The notes under the pieces: model-generated | Databases searched by the model: none | Told to the model about the DNA's origin: nothing | The model's input: only the letters and a program-made list of their open reading frames with translations | In this document: positions 10,790-30,545 of the stretch, piece by piece | Position numbering within the stretch: position 1 is the first letter of the stretch | How the letters are laid out: each line of letters begins with the position of its first letter | Made by a program: the position numbers and the translations under genes | Source: Alexandriicola marinus | GTDB lineage: Bacteria; Pseudomonadota; Alphaproteobacteria; Rhodobacterales; Rhodobacteraceae | Reading direction: 5' to 3' | DNA: 64,000 nt | Assembly (NCBI RefSeq): GCF_004000435.1 | Contig: NZ_RBVZ01000002.1 | Location: forward strand, 310,001-374,000

Positions 10790-11569
10790 TCAGACGACGC
10801 GTTCTATCATCATCTTCTTGATGTCGGAGATCGCCGCCGCGGGGTTCAGGCCCTTGGGACAGGTCTTGGCGCAGTTCATGATCGTATGGCACCGGTAGAG
10901 CTTGAACGGATCTTCGAGATCGTCCAGTCGTTCACCCGTCGCCTCGTCGCGGCTGTCCACAAGCCAGCGATGTGCCGCCAGCAGGGCCGCCGGACCAAGA
11001 TATCGGTCGCCGTTCCACCAGTAGCTGGGACAGGAGGTCGAACAGCAGGCGCAGAGGATGCATTCGTAGTGGCCATCCAGCTTTTCGCGATCAGCGACGG
11101 ACTGGCGCCATTCCTTGGCCGGCGGGTTTGTCTTGGTCTCGAGCCATGGCTTGATCGAGGCGTGCTGCGCATAGAAATGCGTCAGGTCGGGGACAAGATC
11201 CTTGACGACAGGCATGTGCGGCAAGGGATAGATTTTGATATCGCCCTTGATCTCGTCCATGCCGTAGATGCAGGCCAGCGTGTTGATCCCGTCGATGTTC
11301 ATCGCGCAGGATCCGCAGATGCCCTCGCGGCAGGACCGGCGGAAGGTCAGCGTCGGATCGATCTCGTTCTTGATCTTGATCAGCGCATCGAGAACCATCG
11401 GACCGCAGGTTTCCATGTCGACGAAATAGGTGTCGAGCCGGGGGTTCTTTCCGTCATCCGGGTTCCAGCGATAGATCTGCACCTTGCGCAGCTTTGTGGC
11501 CCCTTCGGGTTTGGGCCATGTCTTGCCGGTCGTCATCCGGCTGTTCTTGGGCAGCGTCAGTTGGACCAT
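10790..11569 (-). CDS. sdhB: Succinate dehydrogenase iron-sulfur subunit
   Basis: A 259-residue complex II subunit that carries electrons from FAD in SdhA to ubiquinone. The three cluster motifs are intact: [2Fe-2S] C80, C85, C88, C100; [4Fe-4S] C170, C173, C176, with C180 following; [3Fe-4S] C227, C233, C237. It is the last gene of the sdh operon, separated from the preceding methyltransferase by about 136 nt and from sdhA by three extra genes. Start [10 protein letters not shown] at 11569 fits the family. Confidence 0.97.
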
Positions 11570-12769: not shown

Positions 12770-13512
12770 GCCACACCACCCCAAAGATCAAGGAATCGTT
12801 CTGCCGGCTGCATGTCGAGCGTCTCCTTCAGATCCTCTCGCCGGGCCGGATCAAGCTCGGTCGTGAGGTAGGCATCGACGATGGCGTCGTAATCCGAGGC
12901 CAGACGATCGGACGTCGGATCAAGCCCGCGCACGATGGCAAGGCCGGTAGGCCGGGCATCAAGGATATCGACCGTTAGGTCGGGGCGACGGTCACGCAGG
13001 ATTTCGGTCATCTTCCAGACATCACCCGTCCAGGCCCGGGTCTTCGACTTGTCCCATTCGCGGGCGGACGACGCCACACCGATGGGCACCACGTCATGCA
13101 GGATGATGACCCCGTCGCGGGACATGATCCGTTCGACATTGATGAAGTCGCGCAGCACGAATTCGAACAGGTGCATCCCGTCGATGAAGGCCAGATTTAT
13201 CTTGGCGCCCAGCGACGCAATCTCGCCAGAGGCAAAGACGTCATCGCTTGTCTGCCGAAACAGGTGCAGCGCAGGTTTGTTGTCCCAAACAGGTCCGGCG
13301 ATCTTGAAATCGGGGTCGATGGCAATCGACCGGCAGGTGGCCAGCGCAAGGCTTGCGCCCCGATCCGTCCCGATCTCCAGATACCAGTCGGGAGCCACGA
13401 GCGTCTGAAGACGCTCGAGGCAATCGAGGTAATGCGCCCCGGCAGGCGCAGGCCACCCCTCTTCGGGGACGGGGCCCCTGGGGGTCTTGTCCATGCCGGG
13501 TGCCGCCTGCAT
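12766..13512 (-). CDS. Class I SAM-dependent methyltransferase (Methyltransf_24-like)
   Basis: A 248-residue protein with the class I methyltransferase pattern: YLEIGTDRGASLALA (motif I, about 44-58), SIAIDPDF, LAFIDGMHLFEFVLRDF and VIILHDVVP. These match the Methyltransf_24/cephalosporin-hydroxylase-like group. The ATG at 13512 overlaps the sdhA stop by one base (TGATG), and the gene is coupled to the lipoprotein downstream. Its placement directly behind sdhA means it is co-expressed with complex II. Substrate unknown; sugar or small-molecule methylation is possible. Confidence 0.8.
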   Translation of the reverse strand: MQAAPGMDKTPRGPVPEEGWPAPAGAHYLDCLERLQTLVAPDWYLEIGTDRGASLALATCRSIAIDPDFKIAGPVWDNKPALHLFRQTSDDVFASGEIASLGAKINLAFIDGMHLFEFVLRDFINVERIMSRDGVIILHDVVPIGVASSAREWDKSKTRAWTGDVWKMTEILRDRRPDLTVDILDARPTGLAIVRGLDPTSDRLASDYDAIVDAYLTTELDPARREDLKETLDMQPAERFLDLWGGVA

Positions 13513-15320
13513 CAGTAGACCCGCGCCTTCGGGGCGATTTTCTTCAGGTCGATCCCCCCCTCTTCGGTCTTGGTCAGCGGATCAAGATGGACCGGCCGGT
13601 AGGTCAGCGTTGTCTTGGTGTCATCGACAACGGCCAGCGAATGCTTGCGCCAGTTCTTGTCGTCGCGATCGGCATGATCCTCGTGCGCATGGGCCCCGCG
13701 GCTTTCCTTGCGGGCCTCGGCGCTCACGATGGTGGCAAGCGCGTTGGGCATGAGGTTCGTCAGCTCAAGCGTTTCCATCAGATCGGTGTTCCAGACAAGG
13801 CTCCGGTCGGTGACCTTGATGTCGGCCATCTTGCCGGCGATCGCCTCCATCTTCTCCTTGCCTTCGGCAAGCGTCTTGTCGGTGCGGAACACGGCGGCGT
13901 CCTGCTGCATGGTCTTCTGCATCTCGAGCCGCAATTCCGCCGTCGGCGTGGCGCCATCGGCATGGCGCAGCGCATCAAAGCGGGCAAGCGCCTTGTCGAC
14001 GCTGGCCTGGTTCGGGGTGGGCACGGCGCTGTCGGGATCGACGACCTCGCGCGCACGGATCGCGGCGGCGCGGCCAAAGACGACAAGGTCGATGAGGCTG
14101 TTGGACCCAAGGCGATTGGCGCCGTGCACGCTTGCACAGCCCGCCTCGCCAACGGCCATCAGACCGGGTGCGATGGCGTCGGGGTCCTTGTCGGTCGGGT
14201 TGAGAACCTCACCCCAGTAATTGGTCGGAATGCCGCCCATGTTGTAATGCACGGTGGGAAGCACCGGGATCGGTTCCTTCGTCACGTCGACGCCGGCAAA
14301 GATGCGCGCGGATTCCGAGATGCCCGGCAACCGCTCGGCCAAGGTGGCGGGCGGCAGATGGTTGAGGTGCAGGTGGATGTGATCGCCATCCTTGCCCACG
14401 CCCCGACCTTCGCGGATTTCCATCGTCATGCAGCGCGAGACGACGTCGCGCGAGGCGAGGTCCTTGTAGGTGGGCGCATAGCGTTCCATGAACCGCTCGC
14501 CCTCGGAATTGGTGAGATAGCCTCCCTCGCCCCGTGCGCCTTCGGTGATCAGGCAGCCCGCGCCGTAGATACCGGTCGGGTGGAACTGCACGAACTCCAT
14601 ATCCTGCAGCGGCAGGCCCTGACGTGCGACCATGCCGCCGCCATCGCCGGTGCAGGTATGGGCGGAGGTGGCCGAGAAATAGGCGCGGCCATAGCCGCCT
14701 GTCGCCAGAACCGTCATCTTTGCGGCAAAGAGGTGAAGCGAACCGTCATCCAGCTTCCAGCACAGGACACCCTGGCAGACACCATCTTCGCCCATGATCA
14801 GATCGATGGCGAAATACTCGATATAGAATTCGGCCTTCTGCTTGACCGACTGACCATAGAGCGTGTGCAGGATCGCATGGCCGGTGCGGTCGGCCGCAGC
14901 ACAGGTGCGCTGAACCGGCGGGCCTTCGCCGAATTCGGTCGTGTGCCCGCCGAAGGGACGCTGGTAGATCTTGCCCTCTTCGGTCCGGGAAAACGGCACG
15001 CCGTAATGCTCCAGCTCATAGACCGCCTTGGGCGCCTCGCGGGCGAGGTATTCCATCGCGTCGGTGTCGCCCAGCCAGTCTGACCCTTTGACGGTGTCAT
15101 ACATGTGCCATTGCCAGTGGTCGGGCCCCATGTTCGACAGGCTGGCCGCGATGCCGCCTTGCGCCGCAACCGTATGTGACCGGGTCGGAAACACCTTGGA
15201 GATACAGGCCGTCTTGAGCCCCTGCTCGGCCATCCCGAGCGTCGCCCGAAGGCCGGCGCCCCCGGCCCCCACGACAACGACGTCGAAGGAATGGTGTTCG
15301 ATCGGATAAGCTTCCGTCAT
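13512..15320 (-). CDS. sdhA: Succinate dehydrogenase flavoprotein subunit
   Basis: A 602-residue catalytic subunit of complex II oxidising succinate to fumarate. The FAD dinucleotide motif is [12 protein letters not shown] (about 15-26). H49 in [10 protein letters not shown] is the expected covalent flavin attachment site. [23 protein letters not shown] is the conserved active-site segment. The ATG at 15320 overlaps the preceding gene's stop (TGATG) and is preceded by GGGAAG; an upstream in-frame start would only add an unconserved extension. Operon position: after sdhC, sdhD and a small exported protein. Confidence 0.97.
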
Positions 15321-15754
15321 CAGTTCTTCCCTATTTGCGAGGCCATGGTGCTCATCGCGCTGCATATTTCCAGATCGGTCTCGAGCGCGGTCGATCCCGC
15401 GATGATCTCTCCGGAGGCTGCGAAATTGCTTTCGAACCGGGCGATGTAATCACCCGAAGCAATGGCCGAGAATTGGTAGGCCGCTGTCAGGCCCATCTCC
15501 ATGTCGGCGTCATCCGCGGCGTGGGCCACGGCGGACGCGAGGATCAGGTCTTCGTAGGCGGTGTTGATCTGCGCCCAGGCCTGCGCCCCGAACTCGGCCT
15601 CGGATCCGCGCCCCATAAGCGCCTCGTAGAAGCCGGCACAGGTGCCGAACGCCTGGCTCCATGCGTCTTGCTCGATCAGCTGGGGCAGAGGGTCAGGCTG
15701 CTGGGCCACAACGGGGCTCGCCACGAGGCAGAGAACCGCACAGATGTGCTTCAC
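15320..15754 (-). CDS. Exported protein of unknown function within the sdh operon
   Basis: A 144-residue protein with a signal peptide ([18 protein letters not shown]). The mature part is alpha-helical and acidic, with three cysteines (C12 in the signal; later C39 and one near C132). The start is GTG, overlapping the sdhD stop by four bases (GTGA), and the stop overlaps sdhA, so it is tightly coupled between the membrane anchor and the flavoprotein. No family is recognised. Its position suggests a periplasmic partner or a conserved operon passenger. Confidence 0.75.
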
Positions 15755-16122
15755 AATGCGATCCTCGCCAGAGCAAACACACCGGTCGCGGCCGCCGCAT
15801 AGCTGAGGCAGGTCATGCCGATGATCAGCGCCTTGCGGGCAAAGCCGTGAACGTAATCCTCGATCAGGACCTGCACACCGCCCTTGAAGTGGTAGAAACC
15901 GACGAGGATGGTCAGGATCGCCACGACTGCCGGAAACGGGCGGGCATAATAGACGAGCGCCTCGTCGTAGCCCATGCCCAGCGCCCGGCCGAAGGTGAAG
16001 ATGAAAAGCGGGACAAGCCCGACCAGAGCCACCGAAGACACGATCATGTGCCAGTGATGCATGGTGCCGGATTTCGCGGACCCGAGCCCCGAGGCGCGTT
16101 TGCGGTCGGTCATATACCTCAT
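15751..16122 (-). CDS. sdhD: Succinate dehydrogenase membrane anchor subunit
   Basis: A 123-residue complex II anchor with three membrane segments (about 25-45, 60-82, 95-118). HHWHMIVSSVALV near the start of helix 1 and YHFKGGVQVLIEDYVHG in the middle resemble alphaproteobacterial SdhD quinone/heme regions. The first ATG (16122) has AAAGGGAAC upstream; a second start at 16113 is possible. It follows sdhC by 13 nt. Confidence 0.92.
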   Translation of the reverse strand: MRYMTDRKRASGLGSAKSGTMHHWHMIVSSVALVGLVPLFIFTFGRALGMGYDEALVYYARPFPAVVAILTILVGFYHFKGGVQVLIEDYVHGFARKALIIGMTCLSYAAAATGVFALARIAL

Positions 16123-16135
16123 GCTGCGTTCCCTT

Positions 16136-16519
16136 TCACAAGACGATGACGACGAAGATCGTCAGCAGGACAGAGGCGATCACGCCGCCCATCGCAAACC
16201 GCTCGGACGCTTCGACATCCAGCATCCGGCCTGAATCCCAAATCAGGTGCCGGACGCCGAAGATCAGGTGATACCAGACGGCCCAGACGCTCAGGAACAT
16301 GACCAGATCGCCGAACCAGCTGCGCACGAAGCCATCGGCCCGGGCGAAAGCCTCGGGCCCCGTGGCCAGCGCGATGAACCACCAGACCACCATCAGCGCC
16401 GCCACGATCAGTGCGTTGCCCGTCAGTCGCGTGACGATGGAGGACATAGACGTCCATTGCGGGCGATAAATCTGCAAGTGCGGAGATAGAGGGCGATTGC
16501 CCCTGTTTACATCGGCCAT
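16136..16519 (-). CDS. sdhC: Succinate dehydrogenase cytochrome b556 subunit
   Basis: A 127-residue complex II anchor. The family hallmark RPLSPHLQIYRPQ lies at residues 9-21, and three membrane helices follow. H84 (VWYHLIFGVRHLIWD) is the likely heme b ligand, at the same number as in E. coli SdhC. It is the first gene of the sdh operon. The 220-nt region upstream contains a double GTGATCAC element (16661-16693) that also occurs before sucC. Confidence 0.95.
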   Translation of the reverse strand: MADVNRGNRPLSPHLQIYRPQWTSMSSIVTRLTGNALIVAALMVVWWFIALATGPEAFARADGFVRSWFGDLVMFLSVWAVWYHLIFGVRHLIWDSGRMLDVEASERFAMGGVIASVLLTIFVVIVL

Positions 16520-16660
16520 CTGAATTCCCTTTGTCGCGGTCGGCTAACCGCCCTGTCAGGTTCCCTGTGCCGTTTTGTTATCATCTTTTGAAGCCATGTC
16601 ACACGATCCGGCGCCTGAAATCTGCGCCGAATTGTCCTGATTTTGCAGAAAATTGCCGAT

Positions 16661-16693
16661 TGTGATCACACAAAACTTTTCCGTGATCACAAA
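16661..16693. promoter_or_regulatory. Double GTGATCAC element upstream of sdhC
   Basis: TGTGATCACACA (16661-16672) and CGTGATCACAAA (16682-16693) are separated by nine variable bases, so the two palindromic cores are 21 nt apart, two helical turns. The same two 12-mers with the same spacing occur upstream of sucC (22475-22507). This is a strong candidate for a TCA-cycle operator bound by a pair of dimers on one DNA face. The spacing does not fit a standard Crp/Fnr site. The element lies 142-174 nt before sdhC. Confidence 0.7.
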
Positions 16694-16740
16694 ATTTGGA
16701 CACCCGTGATCGACTCGCTTTTGCATGCACCGGCGCGGCA

Positions 16741-17775
16741 TCACAAAGGCATCAGCGCCCAGTAATCGAGGTCGAGCAGAACTTCGGGCAGGTATTTCCC
16801 GTCGTCACCGCGAAGAGCAAAGGGCGTGGCCCCATCCTTCACGGCGACAAGGCGCAGGCGCAGCGCACCGACGCCCGGAGCCGGCGTTTCGGCCTTGTCG
16901 AGGACTTCGGACCACGCGCGCACGGTGTCGCCCGCGAAACAGGGATTGGCATGGGCCCCGGCATTGAGCCCGACGATCATCTGCGCATTGGCCAACCCGT
17001 TGAACGACAACGCGCGGGCCAGGCTGATCACATGGCCACCATAGATCAACCGCTTGCCGTCGGGCCGGGCGGTGGCGTCGAAATGGACCTTGGCCGTGTT
17101 CTGCCACAGACGCGTGGCCATCATGTGTTCGGCCTCTTCGATGGTGACGCCATCGACATGGTCGATCTTTTCGCCGATCTCGTAGTCGGCCCAGCGGTGC
17201 GGCTCTCCGGCGAGGGTGAAATCATAGGCGCTGAAGTCCAGCTTGGGCGGAATGGCCAGCGCGTCGGGCGCAACAACGGGGGCAAGGTCGGGAACCACGG
17301 GCGCGGGCGCGGGGGCATCCGGATTGGCTTTGCGGACCATGACCCAGCGCACATAGGACAAAAGCTCCTCGCCGCGTTGATTGCGGCCCGTGGTGCGAAC
17401 CCAGACAACGCCGGTCTTGCCGTTCGAGTTCTGCTTCAGGCCGATCACCTCGCTTTCCGAGGTGATGGTATCGCCCGGCCAAAGGGGTGTGAGCCAGCGA
17501 CCCTCGGCATAACCGAGATTGGCGACGGCGTTCAGCGACACATCCGGCACTGTCTTGCCGAAGACCGTGTGAAAGGTCACGAGATCATCGAGCGGGCTGA
17601 ACGGCAGGCCGCAGACCTGTGCGAAGGCATCCGAGGAATGAAGCGCGTGCCGCGCGGGATAAAGCGCATGGTAAAGCGCGCGCTCCCCCATCTTGATTGT
17701 GCGCGGCACGGCATGGCGGATCACCTCGCCCAGCCGGTAATCCTCGAAAAAGCGGCCCGGATTCGTCTTGCTCAT
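16741..17775 (-). CDS. mch: Mesaconyl-C1-CoA hydratase (beta-methylmalyl-CoA dehydratase)
   Basis: A 344-residue double hot-dog MaoC-family enzyme that hydrates mesaconyl-C1-CoA to beta-methylmalyl-CoA in the EMC pathway. The opening FFEDYRLGEVIRHAVPRTI and the internal second MaoC domain (WADYEIGEKIDHVDGVTIEEAEHMMATRLWQNTAKVHFD) match Mch. Its ATG at 17775 overlaps the stop of the DUF1737 gene by four bases, and it is the last gene of the mcl2-nnrU-DUF1737-mch operon. Gene order next to sdhC and mdh resembles that in Rhodobacter sphaeroides. Confidence 0.92.
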   Translation of the reverse strand: MSKTNPGRFFEDYRLGEVIRHAVPRTIKMGERALYHALYPARHALHSSDAFAQVCGLPFSPLDDLVTFHTVFGKTVPDVSLNAVANLGYAEGRWLTPLWPGDTITSESEVIGLKQNSNGKTGVVWVRTTGRNQRGEELLSYVRWVMVRKANPDAPAPAPVVPDLAPVVAPDALAIPPKLDFSAYDFTLAGEPHRWADYEIGEKIDHVDGVTIEEAEHMMATRLWQNTAKVHFDATARPDGKRLIYGGHVISLARALSFNGLANAQMIVGLNAGAHANPCFAGDTVRAWSEVLDKAETPAPGVGALRLRLVAVKDGATPFALRGDDGKYLPEVLLDLDYWALMPL

Positions 17776-17975
17776 TGCTGCCCCAGCTTCATGTCGGGGC
17801 TGTATGCGCCCTCGATCTCCTTGGTAACGGCCTGACCGCAGCGCATGACCCCGTTGGCGTGATCATAGGCGTATTGCGGATCGCCATGAAGAACCCAGCC
17901 TTTCGACAGGGCCTCGCTGACCTTGTGGCAAAAGGCCGAGGTGTCATCCTCGGTCAGGAAACGATAGATTTGCAT
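17772..17975 (-). CDS. DUF1737 small protein
   Basis: A 67-residue protein MQIYRFLTEDDTSAFCHKVSEALSKGW followed by VLHGDPQYAYD. This is the DUF1737 pattern, a small domain found alone or fused in many proteobacteria. It has no signal peptide. It is coupled to mch by an ATGA overlap and follows nnrU by 3 nt. Function is unknown. Confidence 0.8.
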   Translation of the reverse strand: MQIYRFLTEDDTSAFCHKVSEALSKGWVLHGDPQYAYDHANGVMRCGQAVTKEIEGAYSPDMKLGQQ

Positions 17976-17978
17976 CCC

Positions 17979-18524
17979 CTACCCCCAGGGCCGGTAGCCA
18001 AGCCAGTTGTGGATCAGCATCACGATCACCACGACAACGACCGTGGCGACGATCGCCTTGATCTCGGACGAGGCGGGAATGTCGTGGGCCGGCGTCCAGT
18101 CCGGTTCGGCCCGGTTGATGAGGATCACCTCGACGACCGCCCATGCCAGAAGCCCGCCGAACAGGATGAACGAGGCCAGATCGCCATTCACCAGCAGATG
18201 CGCCACGGCAAAGGTCTTGACCGCGGTCAGCTGGGGGTGGCGGATCTTCGTCGTGATCCATGTCTTCGATCCACTGGCTGCGAACAGGTAGAACGCAAAC
18301 AGCATCAGCAGATTGTTGATCCCGACCAGTGCCGGGCTGCGGCCCCACCAGAACGGCCCGTCGGCCATCCGGTAGCCGATCACCATCAGGACGACACTGG
18401 CCAGAAGAATAAGGGCGATGGGGCCCCTGCCCTTGTCGCCCATGCGGGCACGGGCATCCGGTGCGACCCGCTTGAACAGATGCGCAGCCGACCAGAGAAG
18501 AACACCGAGAATAAGGAGGATCAT
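17979..18524 (-). CDS. NnrU-family membrane protein
   Basis: A 181-residue integral membrane protein with about five hydrophobic segments: MILLILGVLLWSAAHLFKR, GPIALILLASVVLMVIGYR, NNLLMLFAFYLFAA, SFILFGGLLAWAVVEVILI and IVATVVVVVIVMLIH. HLFKR, TKIRHPQ and the overall layout match the NnrU/NnrU-like (methyltransferase-like isoprenylcysteine superfamily) family. The ATG at 18524 overlaps the mcl2 stop (ATGA). A denitrification role is known for the founding member but is not implied here. Confidence 0.85.
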   Translation of the reverse strand: MILLILGVLLWSAAHLFKRVAPDARARMGDKGRGPIALILLASVVLMVIGYRMADGPFWWGRSPALVGINNLLMLFAFYLFAASGSKTWITTKIRHPQLTAVKTFAVAHLLVNGDLASFILFGGLLAWAVVEVILINRAEPDWTPAHDIPASSEIKAIVATVVVVVIVMLIHNWLGYRPWG

Positions 18525-19363
18525 GACGCGTCCAGTTCTGCAATTGCTTGAGCTTTGGCAAGCGTCGCCCGCGCGGTGACGATATGCAAGTTCTCTACGA
18601 TCTTTCCGTCGAGGACGGCCACGCCCTGCCCTTCGGCCTCGAACGCTGCGATCTGCCTGCGGGCAAGGTCGATTTCTTCGGCGTCCGGGGCGAATGCAGC
18701 ATTCGCGATGGCAAGCTGCGCCGGGTGGATCAGCGTCTTTCCGTCGAAGCCGAAGTCCCTGCCCTGCGCGCATTCAGCGCGCAGACCCTCGTCATCCTTG
18801 AAGGCGTTGTAGACCCCATCAAGCGCGACCACGCCGCCCGCCCGCGCTGCAAGCACACAGGTCTGCAAAGCGGTGATCAGCGGCCCGCGATCGGCGGCAC
18901 CGCGCACACCCAGATCCTTGGCAAGGTCATTGGTCCCGACCACGATCCCGTCGAGACGCGGATGCGAGGTGATATCGAGCGCGTTCAGGATGCCGCGCGG
19001 CGTTTCCATCATTGCCCAGATGCCGATATCGGGAAGCAGGGCCGCGACGGCTTCGATCTCGTCCGGGCCATTCACCTTGGGCAGTAGAACCGCGTCGCAA
19101 TCCATCTCGGCCACCGCCGTGATATCATCGTCGCCCCATTCGGTCTCCGATCCGTTGACCCGCACGATCCGCGCCCGCGCTCCATAGCCGCCCTTGTAAA
19201 GCTCGGCCGCAAGCGTGGCGCGGGCCGCTGCCTTTTCCCCAGGGCTGACCGCATCCTCGAGATCAAAGATGATCGCGTCAGTCGACAGGCTGCGCGCCTT
19301 GTCAAGCGCGCGAGGCTTTGAGCCGGGAATATAGAGAGCGGAGCGATAGGGACGATTGGTCAT
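18521..19363 (-). CDS. mcl2: (3S)-malyl-CoA thioesterase (Mcl2), CitE-like CoA-ester lyase family
   Basis: A 280-residue HpcH/CitE-type TIM-barrel protein. FDLEDAV (33-39) supplies metal-binding acids, R68-V-N (IVRVNG) and E120 (AMMETPRG) complete the active site. It is shorter than malyl-CoA/beta-methylmalyl-CoA lyase Mcl1, and it sits beside mch and mdh as the R. sphaeroides thioesterase Mcl2 does. It would hydrolyse (3S)-malyl-CoA to malate at the end of the EMC pathway. Start at 19363 (MTNRPYRSALYIPGSKPRAL); the longer frame upstream is unconserved. The beta-methylmalyl-CoA lyase itself is then expected elsewhere in the genome. Lyase activity cannot be excluded from sequence. Confidence 0.75.
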   Translation of the reverse strand: MTNRPYRSALYIPGSKPRALDKARSLSTDAIIFDLEDAVSPGEKAAARATLAAELYKGGYGARARIVRVNGSETEWGDDDITAVAEMDCDAVLLPKVNGPDEIEAVAALLPDIGIWAMMETPRGILNALDITSHPRLDGIVVGTNDLAKDLGVRGAADRGPLITALQTCVLAARAGGVVALDGVYNAFKDDEGLRAECAQGRDFGFDGKTLIHPAQLAIANAAFAPDAEEIDLARRQIAAFEAEGQGVAVLDGKIVENLHIVTARATLAKAQAIAELDAS

Positions 19364-19496
19364 TCTGGGCCTCGAAATAAACTTGCGCGGAAAAGGCCAG
19401 AAATTCCCGGATGTTTCAAGCTCAATCTCGCCGCATCGCAGCATCAAGACGGCAGGCCGGTGTTGCGCAGGACCTGACGCACGGAGCGTTAACCAT

Positions 19497-19530
19497 TGTT
19501 TGGCAGGCTGCGCGGACAGTTTGCCAAACA
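19497..19530. promoter_or_regulatory. TGTTTGGCA inverted repeat between mcl2 and a divergent gene
   Basis: TGTTTGGCA (19497-19505) and its exact reverse complement TGCCAAACA (19522-19530), 16 nt apart, lie in the 283-nt divergent gap, about 135-167 nt upstream of mcl2. Candidate operator; a hairpin in a leader is the alternative. Confidence 0.4.
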
Positions 19531-19646
19531 GAAAAGCCGCGTCGACAGGCCTCCGACTGAGGATGGTGAAAGCGGTTTCGCCGAAGTCCTCCGACAACTC
19601 CTGTGGCCGCATCCGCGTGATTCGGCCCCGACAACCGAGGTTTCTC

Positions 19647-19970
19647 ATGATTGTCTCGCGAATTGCCCGCCCCCTGTCTGCGCTGGTCCTCCTTGGCCTC
19701 GCGGCGTCCCCCGCGCTTGCCCAGCAGACCAACCGAAATTGCGCGCCCCATGCCATGGTGGTCGAGCGACTGGCCTCTGGTTACGGCGAATCCCGTCAAT
19801 CCATCGCGCTGGGGGCCAACAATGCCGTGGTCGAGGTCTTTGCCTCGCTCGAGACCGGCACCTGGACGATCACGGTTACCGCCCCGGGTGGGCTCACCTG
19901 CCTCGTGGCCTCCGGCCTTGCCTATGAGCAGGTCGCCGAAGGTCTGCCAAATACCGATCAGGGTGCCTGA
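19647..19970 (+). CDS. Small exported protein of unknown function
   Basis: A 107-residue protein with an obvious signal peptide (VSRIARPLSALVLLGLAASPALAQQ). The mature part has two cysteines (NCAPH and LTCLV) that could form a disulfide, and a compact beta-rich sequence (NNAVVEVFASLETGTWTITVT). ATG 19647 is chosen because it begins the signal; the upstream in-frame region is unconserved and Arg/Ser-rich. It is divergent from mcl2 and upstream of mdh. No family name assigned. Confidence 0.75.
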   Translation: MIVSRIARPLSALVLLGLAASPALAQQTNRNCAPHAMVVERLASGYGESRQSIALGANNAVVEVFASLETGTWTITVTAPGGLTCLVASGLAYEQVAEGLPNTDQGA

Positions 19971-20122
19971 AAAGACGATGCTTTTCGCCCCTCCGCCCAG
20001 CCCTGCCGGGCCGGGAGGCCACCGTCTGGCCGGACAATGCGCCGTGATGCTGCAGCGCAGCAGGCTTGCGCGACCGCGTCGCAGGGTTTAGGAGCAGGCC
20101 CGATCCAGTATGCAAAGGATAG

Positions 20123-21097
<975 letters not shown>

Positions 21098-21120
21098 TCC
21101 TGACCAGACGCTTACGAGAC

Positions 21121-21154
21121 AAGGCCCGGCACCTCGATGTGTCGGGCCTTTTTC
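21121..21154 (+). terminator. Rho-independent terminator of mdh
   Basis: Stem AAGGCCCGGCAC / GTGTCGGGCCTT (one G-T pair) with a six-base loop and five T residues, 24 nt after the mdh stop. Confidence 0.9.
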
Positions 21155-21240
21155 GTGGCCCGACCCCGGCCCGGCAAAGCGAGACTTGCCAAATCCTCGC
21201 GCGGGGGCGAGGCTTGGGGCACGAACGAAAGGACGCACAC

Positions 21241-22443
21241 ATGGTTCGCACCGCTGCCCTTGCCCTCGTCGTCTCAGGCCTTCTGTCCACCCAGGCCGCC
21301 GCCCAGTCCGACATCAGCGACATGATCGCCACCGATGGGCTGGCCCGGACCGAAGACGTTCTTGCCGCCTTGCCATCGCCGACCCCGACCGAGCTCTTCG
21401 CGCTTGGGGGCGTCCGGTTCCTGGGCGGGATCGAGGCCGCTCTGCAGGCGCGCTGGCAGGTGGGGCTCGACAGTGACCTGTTGCGATCCCTTGGCATTCC
21501 GCTTCTGCGCCTGCCGATTGCGCCGAATCCGTCGCCGGATGTCTTCCGGCCCGAGATGATCGACGCCATCTTTGCCGCGGCCTCCGCCGACATGACCGAG
21601 GCCGCCCGGACGCTGGACGGGCTTGAGGGCGAGGTTGCCCTGCCGATCGACATCGCCGACCTGTGGTTCGATGTGAACGCCAACGGGACAAGAGACATGG
21701 GCGAAGGCGTGATCGAGATCGCGGGCTTCGCTTTGGGCGGCGGCTTCGGCGCGGCACCGGAAGCCGTGACCATTCGCTTTGATACCGCCGACGTCTCCTG
21801 GCTGCGCGCCTATGCGCATCTGCTGGCCGGTATCAGCGACACGATCGGCGCAATCGGCCCCACCGATCCGATCGCCCGGGTGATGGAAACGGCGGAGGGG
21901 TTCTTCGCGGTTGCCGGCCCGCCGCAGCCGTTGGTGCCCTACAGCATCGCCGCCTACCAGACCGAGGTGGATCTTGTCGCGATGATCATCTTCGCGCTCG
22001 AGCAGACGCCTGATCGAACGCTGTCGCAAAGTGCCCATGGCCATTTCCTAGCGATGATCGAGGACAACCGGCAGTTCTGGAGCGAGGTTGCCCGCGAGAC
22101 CGATGATGACGCCGAATGGATCCCGAACAAGAGCCAGGCATCGGCCCTCGGCCTGCCCTTCCCGCCCGAAACCGGGACCCGCTGGCTTGCCGTTCTGGCC
22201 GATGCCGAACGGGTCCTGAAGGGGGAATTGCTGATCCCATATTGGCGGCTCGGCCCCGGGGCCGGGCTGGATCTGGGCGCCATGTTCATGGACCCGCCGG
22301 CCCTCGACCCCGTGGGCCTGATCCAGGGCGAAACCCTTCTGCCCTATGCGCGGCAGGGCCCTCTGGCCAACATGGCGTCGCTGCGCCAGTTCGAGGCGAT
22401 GATCGGCGGAAACGCCGGTCTCTACATGGTGATGCTGAACTGA
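21241..22443 (+). CDS. Large exported protein of unknown function
   Basis: A 400-residue protein with a signal peptide (VRTAALALVVSGLLSTQAAA). The mature protein is Asp/Glu/Ala/Leu-rich and mostly helical, contains DLWFDVNANGTRDMGEGV and IPYWRLGPGAGLDLGAMFMDPP, and has no transmembrane segment after the signal, so it is probably periplasmic. ATG 21241 begins the signal peptide; the upstream in-frame extension covers the mdh terminator and is rejected. No domain is recognised. It lies between mdh and the suc operon, and its stop is 32 nt before the double GTGATCAC element. Confidence 0.8.
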   Translation: MVRTAALALVVSGLLSTQAAAQSDISDMIATDGLARTEDVLAALPSPTPTELFALGGVRFLGGIEAALQARWQVGLDSDLLRSLGIPLLRLPIAPNPSPDVFRPEMIDAIFAAASADMTEAARTLDGLEGEVALPIDIADLWFDVNANGTRDMGEGVIEIAGFALGGGFGAAPEAVTIRFDTADVSWLRAYAHLLAGISDTIGAIGPTDPIARVMETAEGFFAVAGPPQPLVPYSIAAYQTEVDLVAMIIFALEQTPDRTLSQSAHGHFLAMIEDNRQFWSEVARETDDDAEWIPNKSQASALGLPFPPETGTRWLAVLADAERVLKGELLIPYWRLGPGAGLDLGAMFMDPPALDPVGLIQGETLLPYARQGPLANMASLRQFEAMIGGNAGLYMVMLN

Positions 22444-22474
22444 AGGGTTCGAAACGAATCGCTCCCAAGGAGAA

Positions 22475-22507
22475 TGTGATCACACATTTTCGGGGCGTGA
22501 TCACAAA
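22475..22507. promoter_or_regulatory. Double GTGATCAC element upstream of sucC
   Basis: TGTGATCACACA (22475-22486) and CGTGATCACAAA (22496-22507), nine bases apart, 97-129 nt before sucC. All 24 bases of the two half-elements and the spacing are identical to the element upstream of sdhC; only the nine-base spacer differs. This indicates coordinated control of the suc/odh and sdh operons by one unidentified regulator. Confidence 0.7.
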
Positions 22508-22603: not shown

Positions 22604-23797
22604 ATGAACATCCACGAATACCAGGCCAAGGCCCTGCTCCGCTCCTATGGTGCCCCGGTCAGTGACGGTCGTCCCGTCATGCGCGCCGAGGAAGCCAAGA
22701 CGGCTGCGGGCGAACTCGACGGGCCGCTCTGGGTCGTGAAGGCGCAGATCCATGCCGGTGGTCGCGGCAAGGGATCGTTCAAGGAGGAACGCGCCGGAGA
22801 GGCGGGTGGCGTTCGCCTTGCCAGATCGGTCGAAGAGGCCGCTGACGAAGCCAAGAAGATGCTGGGTTCGACCCTTGTGACCAAACAGACCGGTCCGGCC
22901 GGCAAACAAGTGAACCGCATCTATATCGAGGACGGATCGGGCATCGAGACCGAGATGTATCTGGCCCTTCTCGTCGATCGTCAGACCAGCCGCGTCTCGT
23001 TCGTCGCCTCGACCGAAGGCGGCATGGATATCGAGGAGGTCGCGGAATCGACACCCGAGAAGATCCTGTCGTTCAGCGTGGACCCCGCGACGGGCTACCA
23101 GCCCTATCACGGCCGCCGCATCGCATTCTCGCTCGGGCTCGAAGGTCCGCAGGTCAAGCAATGCGTCGCGCTGATGGGCACGCTTTACAAGCTCTTCACC
23201 GACAAGGACATGGAGATGCTGGAGATCAACCCGCTGATCGTCACGGACAAGGGTGACCTGAAATGCCTCGATGCCAAGATGGGCTTTGACGGGAACGCGA
23301 TCTACCGCCACGCCGACATCGCCGCGTTGCGGGACGAGACGGAAGAGGATTCCAAGGAGCTTCAGGCCTCGAAATACGACCTGAACTACATCGCGCTCGA
23401 TGGCGAGATCGGCTGCATGGTGAATGGCGCCGGCCTTGCGATGGCCACGATGGACATCATCAAGCTCTATGGCGCCGAACCTGCCAACTTCCTCGACGTA
23501 GGCGGCGGCGCGACCAAGGAAAAGGTCACCGAGGCCTTCAAGATCATCACCTCGGATCCGAACGTGAAGGGCATCCTCGTGAACATCTTCGGCGGCATCA
23601 TGCGTTGCGACGTCATCGCCGAAGGCGTGGTCGCCGCCGTCAAGGAAGTGGGCCTGAAGGTGCCGCTCGTCGTCCGGCTTGAGGGGACCAACGTCGAAGA
23701 GGGCAAGGCCATCATCAACAATTCCGGCCTCGACGTGATCGCGGCCGACAACCTCAAGGACGGCGCCGAGAAGATCGTGAAAGCGGTCAAGGGCTGA
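22604..23797 (+). CDS. sucC: Succinyl-CoA synthetase (ADP-forming) beta subunit
   Basis: A 397-residue ATP-grasp subunit. [12 protein letters not shown] opens the protein, [11 protein letters not shown] is the nucleotide-binding loop, and [10 protein letters not shown] plus [17 protein letters not shown] are the conserved C-terminal segments. With SucD it interconverts succinyl-CoA and succinate with phosphorylation of a nucleotide. It heads the suc/odh operon; two unrelated genes separate it from sucD. Confidence 0.97.
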
Positions 23798-25414: not shown

Positions 25415-26299
25415 ATGGCCATTCTCATCGACGAAAACACCAAAGTCATCTGCCAGGGGTTCACTGGCAGCCAAGGCACCTTCCATTCCGAGCAAGCGAT
25501 CGACTACGGCACCAAGATGGTGGGCGGCGTGACACCCGGAAAAGGCGGGCAGGAGCATCTGGGCCTTCCGGTCTTCAACTCCGTCCATGAGGCGGTGGCG
25601 GTCACCGGCGCGAATGCCTCGGTCATCTACGTTCCGCCGCCCTTTGCCGCCGATTCCATCCTCGAAGCGGTAGACGCTGAAATCCCGCTGGTCGTGTGCA
25701 TCACCGAAGGCATTCCCGTGCTCGACATGATGCGGGTGAAGCGCGCGCTTGAAGGATCTGCCACGCGGCTGATCGGGCCCAACTGCCCCGGTGTCATCAC
25801 GCCCGGCGCCTGCAAGATCGGCATCATGCCCGGCCACATCCACAAGCGCGGCTCGGTTGGCGTCGTGTCCCGCTCGGGCACGCTGACCTACGAGGCCGTC
25901 AAGCAGACGACCGACAGCGGGCTTGGTCAGTCGACCGCCGTGGGCATCGGCGGCGATCCGATCAAGGGGACGGAGCATATCGACGTGCTCGACATGTTCC
26001 TCGATGACGACGAGACCCAGTCGATCATCATGATCGGCGAGATCGGCGGCACCGCCGAGGAAGAGGCCGCCGAATTCCTCGCTGAGCAGCGCAAGAAGGG
26101 CCGCTGGAAGCCCGTTGCGGGCTTTATCGCGGGCCGCACGGCACCCCCGGGCCGTCGCATGGGCCATGCCGGTGCCATCGTCGCAGGCGGCAAGGGCGAT
26201 GCGGAATCGAAGATCGAGGCCATGAAATCGGCCGGCATCATCGTCGCAGACAGCCCCGCCACGCTGGGCGAAGCGGTCCTGGAAGCGATCGGAAAGTAA
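25415..26299 (+). CDS. sucD: Succinyl-CoA synthetase (ADP-forming) alpha subunit
   Basis: A 294-residue CoA-binding subunit. [19 protein letters not shown] binds Co[13 protein letters not shown] is conserved, and H251 in [11 protein letters not shown] is the residue phosphorylated during catalysis. GAAGGAAACG precedes the ATG. It follows the sulfotransferase by 77 nt and precedes sucA by 75 nt. Confidence 0.97.
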
Positions 26300-26374: not shown

Positions 26375-29329
26375 ATGACAGATCAAAGCCCCAACGACGT
26401 CTTCCACGCCTCCTCGTTCCTGCAGGGGCACAATGCCGATTACATCGAGGCGCTCTACGCGAAATACGCCGACAATCCCGGTGCGGTGGATGAAAGCTGG
26501 CGTCAATTCTTTGCCTCTCTGGGAGACAGCGCGGCCGACGCCAAGGCAGAGGCCGCGGGCCCGTCCTGGGCGCGGGCCGACTGGCCGCCGGTTCCTTCGG
26601 ATGAGCTGACCGCGGCGCTTGATGGTCAGTGGCCGACCGAGGCCAAGGCCGCCGGCGACAAGATCAGGTCCAAGGCCGAAGAGAAGGGTGTCACCCTTTC
26701 GGAGGAACAGGTCCGGGCGGCGGTGCTCGATTCGATCAGGGCGCTGATGATCATCCGCGCCTATCGGATCCGGGGTCACCTTGTGGCCGATCTCGATCCG
26801 CTGGGGATGCGCAACAACGCCCTGCATCCCGAACTCGATCCCGCGTCCTATGGCTTTACCAAGGCGGACATGGATCGGCCGATCTTCATCGACAACGTCC
26901 TCGGGCTCGAGGTTGCGACGATGAACGAGATCGTGGCGCTTGTCCGGCGCACCTATTGCGGCACTTTCGCGCTCCAGTATATGCATATCTCCGACCCGGA
27001 GCAGGCCGCCTGGCTCAAGGAACGGATCGAGGGCTATGGCAAGGAGATCCAGTTCACCAAGGAAGGCCGGAAAGCCATTCTGAACAAGCTGGTGGAGGCC
27101 GAGGGCTTCGAGAAATTCCTGCATGTCAAATACATGGGCACCAAGCGGTTCGGCCTTGATGGCGGTGAGGCGCTGATCCCCGCGATGGAACAGATCATCA
27201 AGCGCGGCGGCGCGCTGGGTCTGAAAGAGGTCGTGATCGGTATGCCCCACAGGGGCCGCCTGTCGGTTCTGGCCAATGTCATGGGCAAGCCCTACCGCGC
27301 GATCTTCAACGAATTCCAGGGCGGCAGCTTCAAGCCCGAAGATGTCGATGGATCGGGCGATGTGAAGTATCACCTAGGCGCATCGTCGGACCGTGAATTC
27401 GACGGCAACAGCGTCCACCTGTCGCTGACCGCGAACCCGTCTCACCTCGAGGCCGTGAACCCGGTTGTCCTTGGCAAGGTCCGGGCCAAGCAGGAGCAGC
27501 TGGCCGATCACGATCGCAAACAGGTCGTGGGAGTTCTGCTGCACGGTGACGCGGCCTTCGCGGGGCAAGGTGTGGTGGCCGAGGGCTTTGGCCTGTCCGG
27601 CCTCACGGGGCACCGCACCGGCGGGACGATCCATATCGTGGTCAACAACCAGATCGGCTTTACCACCGCCCCCGCGTTCTCGCGGTCGTCGCCCTATCCG
27701 ACCGATATCGCCCTGATGGTCGAGGCTCCGATCTTCCACGTCAACGGCGACGATCCGGAAGCCGTGGTGCACGCGGCCAAGGTCGCCACCGAATACCGCC
27801 AGAAGTTCGGCAAGGACGTGGTCATCGACATCATCTGCTATCGCCGCTTTGGCCATAACGAGGGGGATGAACCGATGTTCACGAACCCCGGCATGTACAA
27901 GCGGATCAAGTCGCACAAGACGACGCTGACCTTGTATACCGAGCGTCTGGTGAAGGACGGACTTATCCCCGAGGGCGAGATCGAGGATATGAAAGCCTCG
28001 TTCCAGGCCACGCTCAACGATGAGTTCGAGGCCGGCAAGACCTACAAGCCCAACAAGGCCGACTGGCTCGATGGCCGGTGGTCGCATCTGGACCGGGAAA
28101 AAGACAAGTATCAGCGCGGCCAGACATCGATCTCGCCCGAGACGATGGCCGACATCGGCCGCGCCCTGACCCATGTGCCGGACGGGTTCAACCTGCACCG
28201 CACGGTGAAACGGCTGGTGGATTCGAAAGCCGAGATGTTCGAAAGCGGCAAGGGGTTCGACTGGGCAACCGGTGAAGCCCTCGCCTTCGGCTCTCTTCTG
28301 ACAGAAGGATACCGTGTCCGCCTGTCGGGTCAGGATTCGACGCGCGGCACATTCTCGCAGCGGCACTCGGCCTTCATCGACCAGGAAAACGAGGCGCGGC
28401 ACTATCCGCTCAATCACATCCGCGAAGGTCAGGCGCATTACGAGGTCATCGATTCGATGCTTTCGGAATACGCGGTGCTGGGTTTCGAATACGGCTATTC
28501 GCTGGCCGAACCCTCGGCGCTTGTCCTGTGGGAGGCGCAGTTCGGCGACTTCGCCAACGGTGCACAGATCATGTTCGACCAGTTCATCTCGTCGGGCGAG
28601 TCGAAATGGCTCCGGATGTCGGGCCTCGTGTGCCTGCTCCCGCATGGCTATGAAGGTCAGGGTCCCGAGCACAGCTCCGCCCGGCTGGAACGGTTCCTGA
28701 CGATGTGTGGCGGCGACAACTGGATTGTGGCCAATTGCACGACGCCTGCGAACTATTTCCACATCCTGCGCCGGCAGCTTCACCGCACCTTCCGCAAGCC
28801 GCTGATCCTGATGACGCCGAAATCGCTTCTGCGGCACAAGCTCGCGATTTCGGATGCCGACGATTTCACCACCGGGTCGAGCTTTCACCGGGTTCTGTGG
28901 GATGATGCGCAGAAGGGCCATTCCGATACCCAACTGAAACCCGACGATCAGATCCGCCGCGTGGTGATGTGTTCTGGCAAGGTCTACTACGACCTGCTTG
29001 AGGCGCGCGACGAGGCGGGGATCGACGACATCTACCTGATGCGGATCGAGCAATATTATCCCTTCCCGGCGATCAGCCTCGTGAAAGAGCTGGAACGGTT
29101 CAAGAGCGCCGAAATGGTCTGGTGTCAGGAAGAGCCCAAGAACCAGGGCGCGTGGTCGTTCATCGAACCCAATGTCGAATGGGTGCTCAGCCGGATCGGC
29201 GCGACGCATCAACGGCCCACCTATGCCGGGCGGCCTGCTGCCGCCTCCCCCGCCACAGGCCTTGCCTCGCAGCACAAGGCCCAGCAAACCGCGCTCGTCA
29301 ACGATGCGCTCGATCTTGAAGGAAACTGA
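26375..29329 (+). CDS. sucA: 2-oxoglutarate dehydrogenase E1 component
   Basis: A 984-residue thiamine-diphosphate enzyme that decarboxylates 2-oxoglutarate and succinylates lipoyl-E2. Recognisable segments: [25 protein letters not shown] (E2-binding N-terminus), [33 protein letters not shown] and [12 protein letters not shown] (ThDP-binding region), and [36 protein letters not shown]. Start ATG 26375 has a GGAGGT six bases upstream; a longer in-frame start adds 24 unconserved residues. Confidence 0.97.
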
Positions 29330-29330
29330 A

Positions 29331-30545
29331 ATGAGCACCGAAGTCCGCGTCCCGACGCTCGGGGAAAGCGTCACCGAGGCCACCGTTGCAACCTGGTTCA
29401 AGAAGCCCGGCGATAGCGTGGCGGCCGACGAAATGCTGTGCGAGCTGGAAACCGACAAGGTGACGGTCGAGGTCCCCTCGCCCGTCGCCGGCACCCTGAG
29501 CGAGATCGTCGCAGGCGAAGGCGAAACGGTGGGGGTCGACGCCCTGCTGGCGCAGATCGCCGAAGGCGAGGCCGCACCCGCGCCGGCCGAGGAAGCCCAC
29601 GCAAAGGAAGAGGCGCCAGCGAAGGAAACCGCACCGGCCGCCGATGCATCGGCCCGCGACGATGTGGAAGACGCGCCATCGGCCAAGAAACTGATGGCCG
29701 AGAACGACCTCAAGGATGGGGACGTTCAGGGCACCGGCAAAGATGGTCGGATCATGAAGGAAGATGTGCTCAAGGCGCTGTCGCAGCCCAAGGCCGCCGA
29801 AGCCCCGGCGCCCGCTCCGCGCGCGCCCGTCGCAGCCTCCGATGCCGACCGCGAAGAGCGGGTCAAGATGACCCGTCTGCGCCAGACCATCGCCCGACGC
29901 CTGAAAGAGGCGCAGAATACCGCCGCGATGCTGACCACCTATAACGAGGTGGACATGACCGGCATCATGGAATTGCGGAACGAATACAAGGACCTGTTCC
30001 TCAAGAAGCATGGCGTGAAGCTGGGCTTCATGTCGTTCTTCACCAAGGCCTGCTGCCACGCCCTCAAGGAAGTCCAGGACGTCAATGCCGAGATCGACGG
30101 CGATCACGTCGTTTACAAGAACTATGTCCACATGGGCATTGCCGTGGGCACGCCGACCGGGCTTGTCGTCCCGGTGCTGCGCGACGCCGACCAGAAAAGC
30201 TTTGCCGAGATCGAGAAGGAAATCTCCGATCTCGGGATCAAGGCGCGGGACGGCAAATTGTCGATGGCCGATATGCAGGGTGGGTCGTTCACGATCTCGA
30301 ACGGCGGGGTCTATGGCTCGCTCATGTCCTCGCCGATCCTGAACCCGCCGCAATCGGGCATCCTCGGCATGCACAAGATCCAGGAACGGCCGATGGTCGT
30401 GAACGGTGAGATCGTGATCCGTCCGATGATGTATCTTGCGCTGAGCTATGATCACCGGATCGTCGACGGCAAGGGCGCCGTGACCTTCCTCGTCCGCGTC
30501 AAGGAGGCGCTGGAAGATCCGCGCAGGCTGCTGATGGATCTGTGA
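29331..30545 (+). CDS. sucB: Dihydrolipoamide succinyltransferase (E2 of 2-oxoglutarate dehydrogenase)
   Basis: A 404-residue E2. The lipoyl domain (1-75) carries K43 in ETDKVTVEV. An Ala/Pro/Glu-rich linker leads to the E3/E1-binding domain ([25 protein letters not shown]). The catalytic domain ends with H375 and D379 in [13 protein letters not shown]. The ATG follows the sucA stop by one base and has GAAGGAAAC as ribosome-binding site. Confidence 0.97.

Follow-up and report, generated by a model that had tools for sequence, protein, structure and literature searches.

The window analysed here, a 64,000-nucleotide stretch of the Alexandriicola marinus genome (contig NZ_RBVZ01000002.1, positions 310,001 to 374,000), carries the same double sequence element before two genes of the tricarboxylic acid (TCA) cycle, sdhC (succinate dehydrogenase) and sucC (succinyl-CoA synthetase). 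Judging from comparisons across genomes, both elements are very probably tandem operators of the activator AkgR, likely bound cooperatively and serving the upstream activation of sdhCDAB and sucCD-odhAB. Three observations fit membership of the AkgR regulon. The window holds four exact copies of the core GTGATCAC, arranged in two pairs; one pair stands before sdhC and the other before sucC, which is followed by sucA and sucB; and an orthologous regulator with GntR and FCD domains is encoded in the same genome.

Paired elements in the window and in the genome

The window was scanned for TGTGATCACACA-N9-CGTGATCACAAA. Two matches were found, both with zero mismatches (Table 1) and exactly where a preliminary description of this DNA had placed a double element, and no third copy was found elsewhere in the window with up to three mismatches allowed. 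None of 100 dinucleotide shuffles of the window reached two matches, the top count being 0. Across the 4.6 Mb genome, exact GTGATCAC cores 21 bp apart are confined to these two pairs, as are matches to TGTGATCACA-N11-TGTGATCACA with at most three mismatches; a reversed control pattern returned no hits in either scan. Both pairs occupy the same location in other genera. As sdhC is on the minus strand and sucC on the plus strand, the paired elements are inverted relative to transcription, and their shared outer letters thus represent a symmetric consensus rather than an oriented signal.

Among 97 distinct pairs, those spaced at 21 bp give a symmetrised profile that reads TTTGTGATCACA, an A/T-rich middle and TGTGATCACAAA, with the three outer T/A letters at 65-86%. 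The spacer had been described as free to vary. Its letters do turn over across genera, but its composition is constrained, the middle seven bases being 64-79% A/T at each position. The same description had held the element to be unlike Crp/Fnr sites in spacing, and this was borne out. The Crp consensus is TGTGA-N6-TCACA, while here TGTGA directly adjoins TCACA with no N6 between them, and a Crp/Fnr site was rejected on that ground.

A search for further copies before gltA, icd, acn and fumC had been suggested. No such pairs exist in this genome, and a pair before fumC exists in one other genus (G037, below). Sixty-five places in the genome match TGTGATCACA with at most one mismatch, 50 of them listed, and three more carry CGTGATCACA. 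Eighteen places with an intact core were read and 17 of these, all but the one before akgR, fall inside open frames. These frames were chosen on length and codon-position G+C, and a few are doubtful as genes. On the 18 places read, a wider regulon in this genome was rejected.

AkgR as the candidate binder

We take RSP_0981 of Cereibacter sphaeroides to be AkgR, which is said to activate TCA genes directly (work of Imam, Noguera and Donohue in mBio, 2015). According to excerpts of one study, RSP_0981, a GntR protein, is the predicted regulator of RSP_0967-6 (succinyl-CoA synthetase), RSP_0974-6 (succinate dehydrogenase) and RSP_0965-62 (2-oxoglutarate dehydrogenase) (PMC4344238), and an excerpt of another places GTGATCAC among the binding sites of the activator AkgR of Rhodobacter sphaeroides (PMC6365646). 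The regulator had been left unnamed in the preliminary description, yet AkgR was already in print with this motif and these operons; a GntR-type binder had been among the candidates offered there, which is what AkgR, a GntR/FCD protein, is.

The orthologue in A. marinus (C24:390128-390775) lies 16 kb past the end of the window, contains GntR (PF00392) and FCD (PF07729) domains and is 75% identical to the copy in C. sphaeroides (G046). A single core is found 11-18 bases before its ATG. The genome contains 14 FCD-domain genes; of 22 candidates at first look, 15 were scored, and this orthologue was the sole match to the AkgR query at E <= 1e-25. The G046 genome, of which a 6000-base stretch is 99.9% identical to C. 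sphaeroides plasmids (matches to 2.4.1), carries an exact 21-bp pair before sucC and another before sdhC. Approximately 5 kb from the latter pair is a GntR gene, in agreement with the RSP gene numbering.

In 112 AkgR orthologues the FCD helix carries N-L-E-F-H, including an almost invariant Asn, and no third His is evident. At the position of this Asn, Asp is found in metal-binding FCD proteins, and the effector site of AkgR may be one without a metal.

A single core precedes akgR itself in 41 of 112 loci. We also scanned relatives for AkgR loci, 80 of which are listed from 467 relatives. A 20- or 21-bp pair falls inside the flanks of 11 of these 80, because akgR is often far from sdh and suc or the flank is short. 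One locus (L260, G165:C1:3357949-3357969) has two cores 13 bp apart directly before akgR, a spacing unlike that of the TCA pairs.

Distribution across the family and beyond

One genome per genus was sampled from the family (199 genomes), a pair being defined as two exact GTGATCAC cores with a spacer of 2-32 bases. Pairs were found in 179 of the 199, mostly two per genome, although with spacers of this range allowed a few genomes may count through a chance pair; the reversed pattern was found in none. Among the 75 pairs listed (36 genomes), the spacing is 21 bp in 62, 20 bp in 6 and another value in 7, and where two such pairs share a contig they lie 4.6-9.6 kb apart in 27 of 28 cases. The paired 20-21-bp architecture is a family-wide feature. 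Absence from close relatives had been named as grounds for dismissing the element and does not apply; the proposed joining of the sdh and suc/odh operons under a common operator type also stands, with the phasing kept across the family.

A scan of 153 loci gave 81 pairs spaced 20 or 21 bp: 44 before sucC, 35 before sdhC, one before sucA (L070) and one before fumC (L239). Many of these loci were fetched for holding a pair, so the counts show location and not operon frequency. Exact triples before sucC (L141 and L151) are each counted twice, and the 81 pairs therefore represent 79 upstream regions. Six further pairs have other spacings (10-31 bp), three being away from the queried genes, two within sucC arrays with an extra core and one before akgR. 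The frame behind the L239 pair (L239:694-722, G037; 21 bp) was read by eye as fumC, an extra TCA target in one genus.

Strong AkgR orthologues (E <= 5.4e-80) were also found in 179 of the 199 genomes, with weak matches only in 8 and no match at E <= 1e-25 in 12. Pair and orthologue agree in 195 genomes, both being present in 177 and neither in 18 (Fisher p 2e-21, kinship ignored). Two discordant genomes, G018 and G105, have the pair only, and two have AkgR only. A closer inspection of the latter reveals that G035 has, at each of the two operons (before sucC and before sdhC), an exact core 21 bp from a core with one mismatch, and that G139 is a fragmented genome which yielded neither gene. In genomes with neither AkgR nor pair, no exact core was found within 300-350 bp before sucC (14 regions) or sdhC (15 regions); a lone one-mismatch core was seen in 1 of the 14 and 2 of the 15. 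Along a SucC tree (67 rows) at least seven changes of the pair are needed, two of them forced by well-supported branches. In these two independent contrasts AkgR changed in the same direction in 1.8 on average and never in the opposite one, with no difference in 0.2.

Of 192 genomes from the class, 3 of them from the family, five contain a pair: the three family members, G324 and G367. The G367 pair sits in overlapping open frames and looks like coding sequence. AkgR was matched at E <= 1e-40 in five of the 192, comprising the three family genomes, alone at orthologue level (1e-102 or better), and weaker relatives in G232 and G286 (E about 1e-42, 37-41% identity). In G324, which belongs to another family, the pair (L263:992-1020) precedes a GntR gene not orthologous to akgR, with a one-mismatch core 20 bp farther out. 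Core and spacing are thus common to a related regulator elsewhere. A frame on the opposite strand at this locus reads by eye like a TonB-type receptor.

Promoter geometry and a proposed mechanism

A two-block promoter model, seeded with TTGACA/TATAAT and placed freely between pair and start codon, was fitted to 35 sdhC upstream regions and settled on GTGACW-N16-TATNNA-like blocks. The predicted -10 begins 79-82 bases past the nearer core in 28 of the 35. Four other offsets (69, 91, 100 and 101) are whole helical turns away within about 1.5 bases, and the last three (39, 61 and 116) are weak fits. If the transcript starts 12 bases after the first -10 base, the model would put the sdhC core centres near -97 and -118. 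At sucC, distances were read by eye and from the positions of TTTTG or TTTGG. Measured from the centre of the nearer core, one of these motifs starts 50.5 or 51.5 bases away in six regions (L076, L143, L130, L111, L151 and L064) and 40.5 bases away in the window and L175; in other regions it is elsewhere or absent.

Third cores (at least 7 of 8 letters) occur at 21 bp in 5 loci, two of which (L141 and L169) are from close relatives, and no more than 2 occur at any other offset from 9 to 49; further exact triples are listed in G122 and G169. That the two-turn spacing persists although the letters of the spacer vary is suggestive of two dimers sharing one face of the DNA. Moreover, the third cores at 21 bp and the sdhC offsets by helical turns favour cooperative, face-dependent binding. 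The earlier proposal of cooperatively bound sites is therefore strengthened by the spacing data, short of proof.

AkgR acting as an activator from upstream on one helical face is the mechanism favoured by this geometry. One AkgR dimer would sit on each 8-bp palindrome, which measures 10-14 bp when the A/T flanks are counted. Two dimers on one side of the helix, 21 bp or two turns from each other, would aid each other's binding across the A/T-rich middle. The pair would stand upstream of the -35, its helical angle to the promoter being fixed, and at sucC probably one to two turns closer, which is less sure. The sdhCDAB and sucCD-odhAB operons would then most likely be raised together when 2-oxoglutarate must be oxidised. 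We infer the dimer on each core, the cooperativity, the activation at these promoters in this species and the signal.

With slightly more doubt than belief, we extend this to a phased array, in which dimers placed every 21 bp at a fixed promoter angle would govern sdh and suc/odh as one unit, with up to three cores, with fumC added in at least one genus, and with sites and regulator lost together as one module. The array before a paralogue in G324 would make this mode older than AkgR.

Alternative explanations

Several points weigh against AkgR as the general binder of these pairs, or against parts of the mechanism. G105 and G018 hold pairs without a strong AkgR match. The kinship-controlled test of pair against AkgR is weak, two well-supported contrasts being too few for significance. 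No core precedes akgR in 65 of the 80 AkgR loci, some with short flanks, or in C. sphaeroides, so autoregulation is not general. Single cores are common inside open frames, and a lone core therefore proves nothing, a point that is neutral as to mechanism. The promoter-phasing argument rests on four outliers, and the promoter model did not converge at sucC, hence the reading of distances there by eye and by motif.

The two cores could be independent sites, their constant spacing being a matter of inheritance with no cooperative binding. The single core before akgR in many loci means that one core is possibly a site alone. However, two unrelated operons both retain the 20-21-bp spacing across genera in which the spacer sequence differs, and the third cores and the fumC pair of G037 also stand at 21 bp, and we consider independence unlikely. 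Slightly less likely again is repression of the two operons by AkgR bound at the pairs. Repressors are numerous among FCD-GntR proteins, and the akgR core beside the start codon has a repressor-like place, but the sdhC pair is well upstream of the predicted promoter. AkgR is, furthermore, called a transcriptional activator in an excerpt of the literature (PMC6365646).

We give little credence to the binding of the pairs by some other regulator, for example a second FCD-GntR protein of the same genome. There are 14 FCD-domain genes from which it could come, a GntR gene in another family (G324, L263) is preceded by a pair, and the proposed GTGATCAC binder PS417_07240 is 32% identical to AkgR, indicating that related GntR proteins share the core (excerpt of PMC6365646). 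Against this, only one of the 15 scored candidates matches the AkgR query at E <= 1e-25, with a core before it, and in 195 of 199 genomes pair and AkgR are either both present or both absent. That the repeats act as an RNA hairpin (terminator or attenuator) is scarcely credible. Each core is its own reverse complement, so that two copies could pair, direct copies of a palindrome being also an inverted repeat, and the sdhC pair is downstream of a same-strand gene. However, dyad symmetry is retained within each copy, although a hairpin would not require it, the spacing is nearly fixed, the sdhC pair is upstream of the predicted -35 and single copies stand before akgR. Taken together, these comparisons point to a well-supported and mostly ordinary regulatory switch, the pairs being most likely docking sites for AkgR.

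Genes and features of the window

The putative operators, the predicted sdhC promoter and the surrounding genes are listed in Table 1. A 434-aa open frame between mdh and sucC (21139-22443) gave no hit in Pfam or NCBIfam at E <= 0.001.

Table 1. Positions of the putative operator pairs, the predicted sdhC promoter and the sdh and suc/odh genes within the window.
Feature	Position	Strand	Basis or detail
Putative operator pair before sdhC	16661..16693	.	cores GTGATCAC at 16662-16669 and 16683-16690, 21 bp core to core
Putative operator pair before sucC	22475..22507	.	cores at 22476-22483 and 22497-22504, 21 bp core to core
Predicted -35 of sdhC, GTGACA	16597..16602	-	two-block promoter model
Predicted -10 of sdhC, TAACAA	16575..16580	-	two-block model; 16-bp spacer, 81 bases past nearer core
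sdhC, succinate dehydrogenase cytochrome b556 subunit, first of the sdh cluster	16136..16519	-	PF01127, TIGR02970
sdhD	about 15751-16122	-	open frame; name read from translation
sdhA	within 13512-15365	-	open frame; name read from translation
sdhB, final sdh gene of the cluster	10790..11569	-	open frame; name read from translation
sucC, succinyl-CoA synthetase beta subunit	22604..23797	+	NF001913
sucD, succinyl-CoA synthetase alpha subunit	25415..26299	+	open frame; name read from translation
sucA (odhA), 2-oxoglutarate dehydrogenase E1	26375..29329	+	PF00676, PF16870
sucB (odhB), E2 of the 2-oxoglutarate dehydrogenase complex	29322..30545	+	PF00198

Significance and comparison with known systems

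With the AkgR assignment, a striking repeat that most of the genera sampled from a large bacterial family have in common gains a named regulator, and the segment of the TCA cycle from 2-oxoglutarate to fumarate is predicted to be under joint control in those genera. The fixed spacing also offers a simple handle on the possible cooperative upstream action of this GntR/FCD protein.

Two other systems touch on this one. The regulon of CceR, a LacI-type protein, includes succinate dehydrogenase and 2-oxoglutarate dehydrogenase in R. sphaeroides, as given in excerpts of two papers; CceR differs from AkgR in belonging to another protein family and, by the same excerpts, does not control these enzymes in Paracoccus denitrificans (PMC11323563, PMC5507952). 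By eye, TAGCGCTA-like palindromes, of the kind bound by LacI proteins, lie between pair and start codon in several genera, at L112 and L055 (G174) and at L054, L134 and L171, and are possibly CceR sites. The GntR protein PS417_07240 of Pseudomonas simiae, from a deoxyribonate cluster, resembles AkgR in its sequence (the identity given above) and in its proposed site. However, that site is a lone palindrome, placed at -47 to -40 relative to the start codon predicted for its own cluster, the pathway is another one, and no pair is described in the excerpt seen (PMC6365646).

The closest likeness is to the AkgR regulon of C. sphaeroides. A core stands in front of akgR in A. marinus, whereas none is present within 400 bp of akgR in G046. 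No description of the 21-bp pair architecture was found in the portions of the AkgR literature compared, the primary paper (Imam 2015) lying outside that comparison. With regulator and regulon published, the window provides an orthologous instance to which the phased-array architecture may add a new detail: as in C. sphaeroides, the core is GTGATCAC, the operons are sdh, suc and odh, the GntR/FCD regulator is orthologous and the pairs are spaced at 21 bp.

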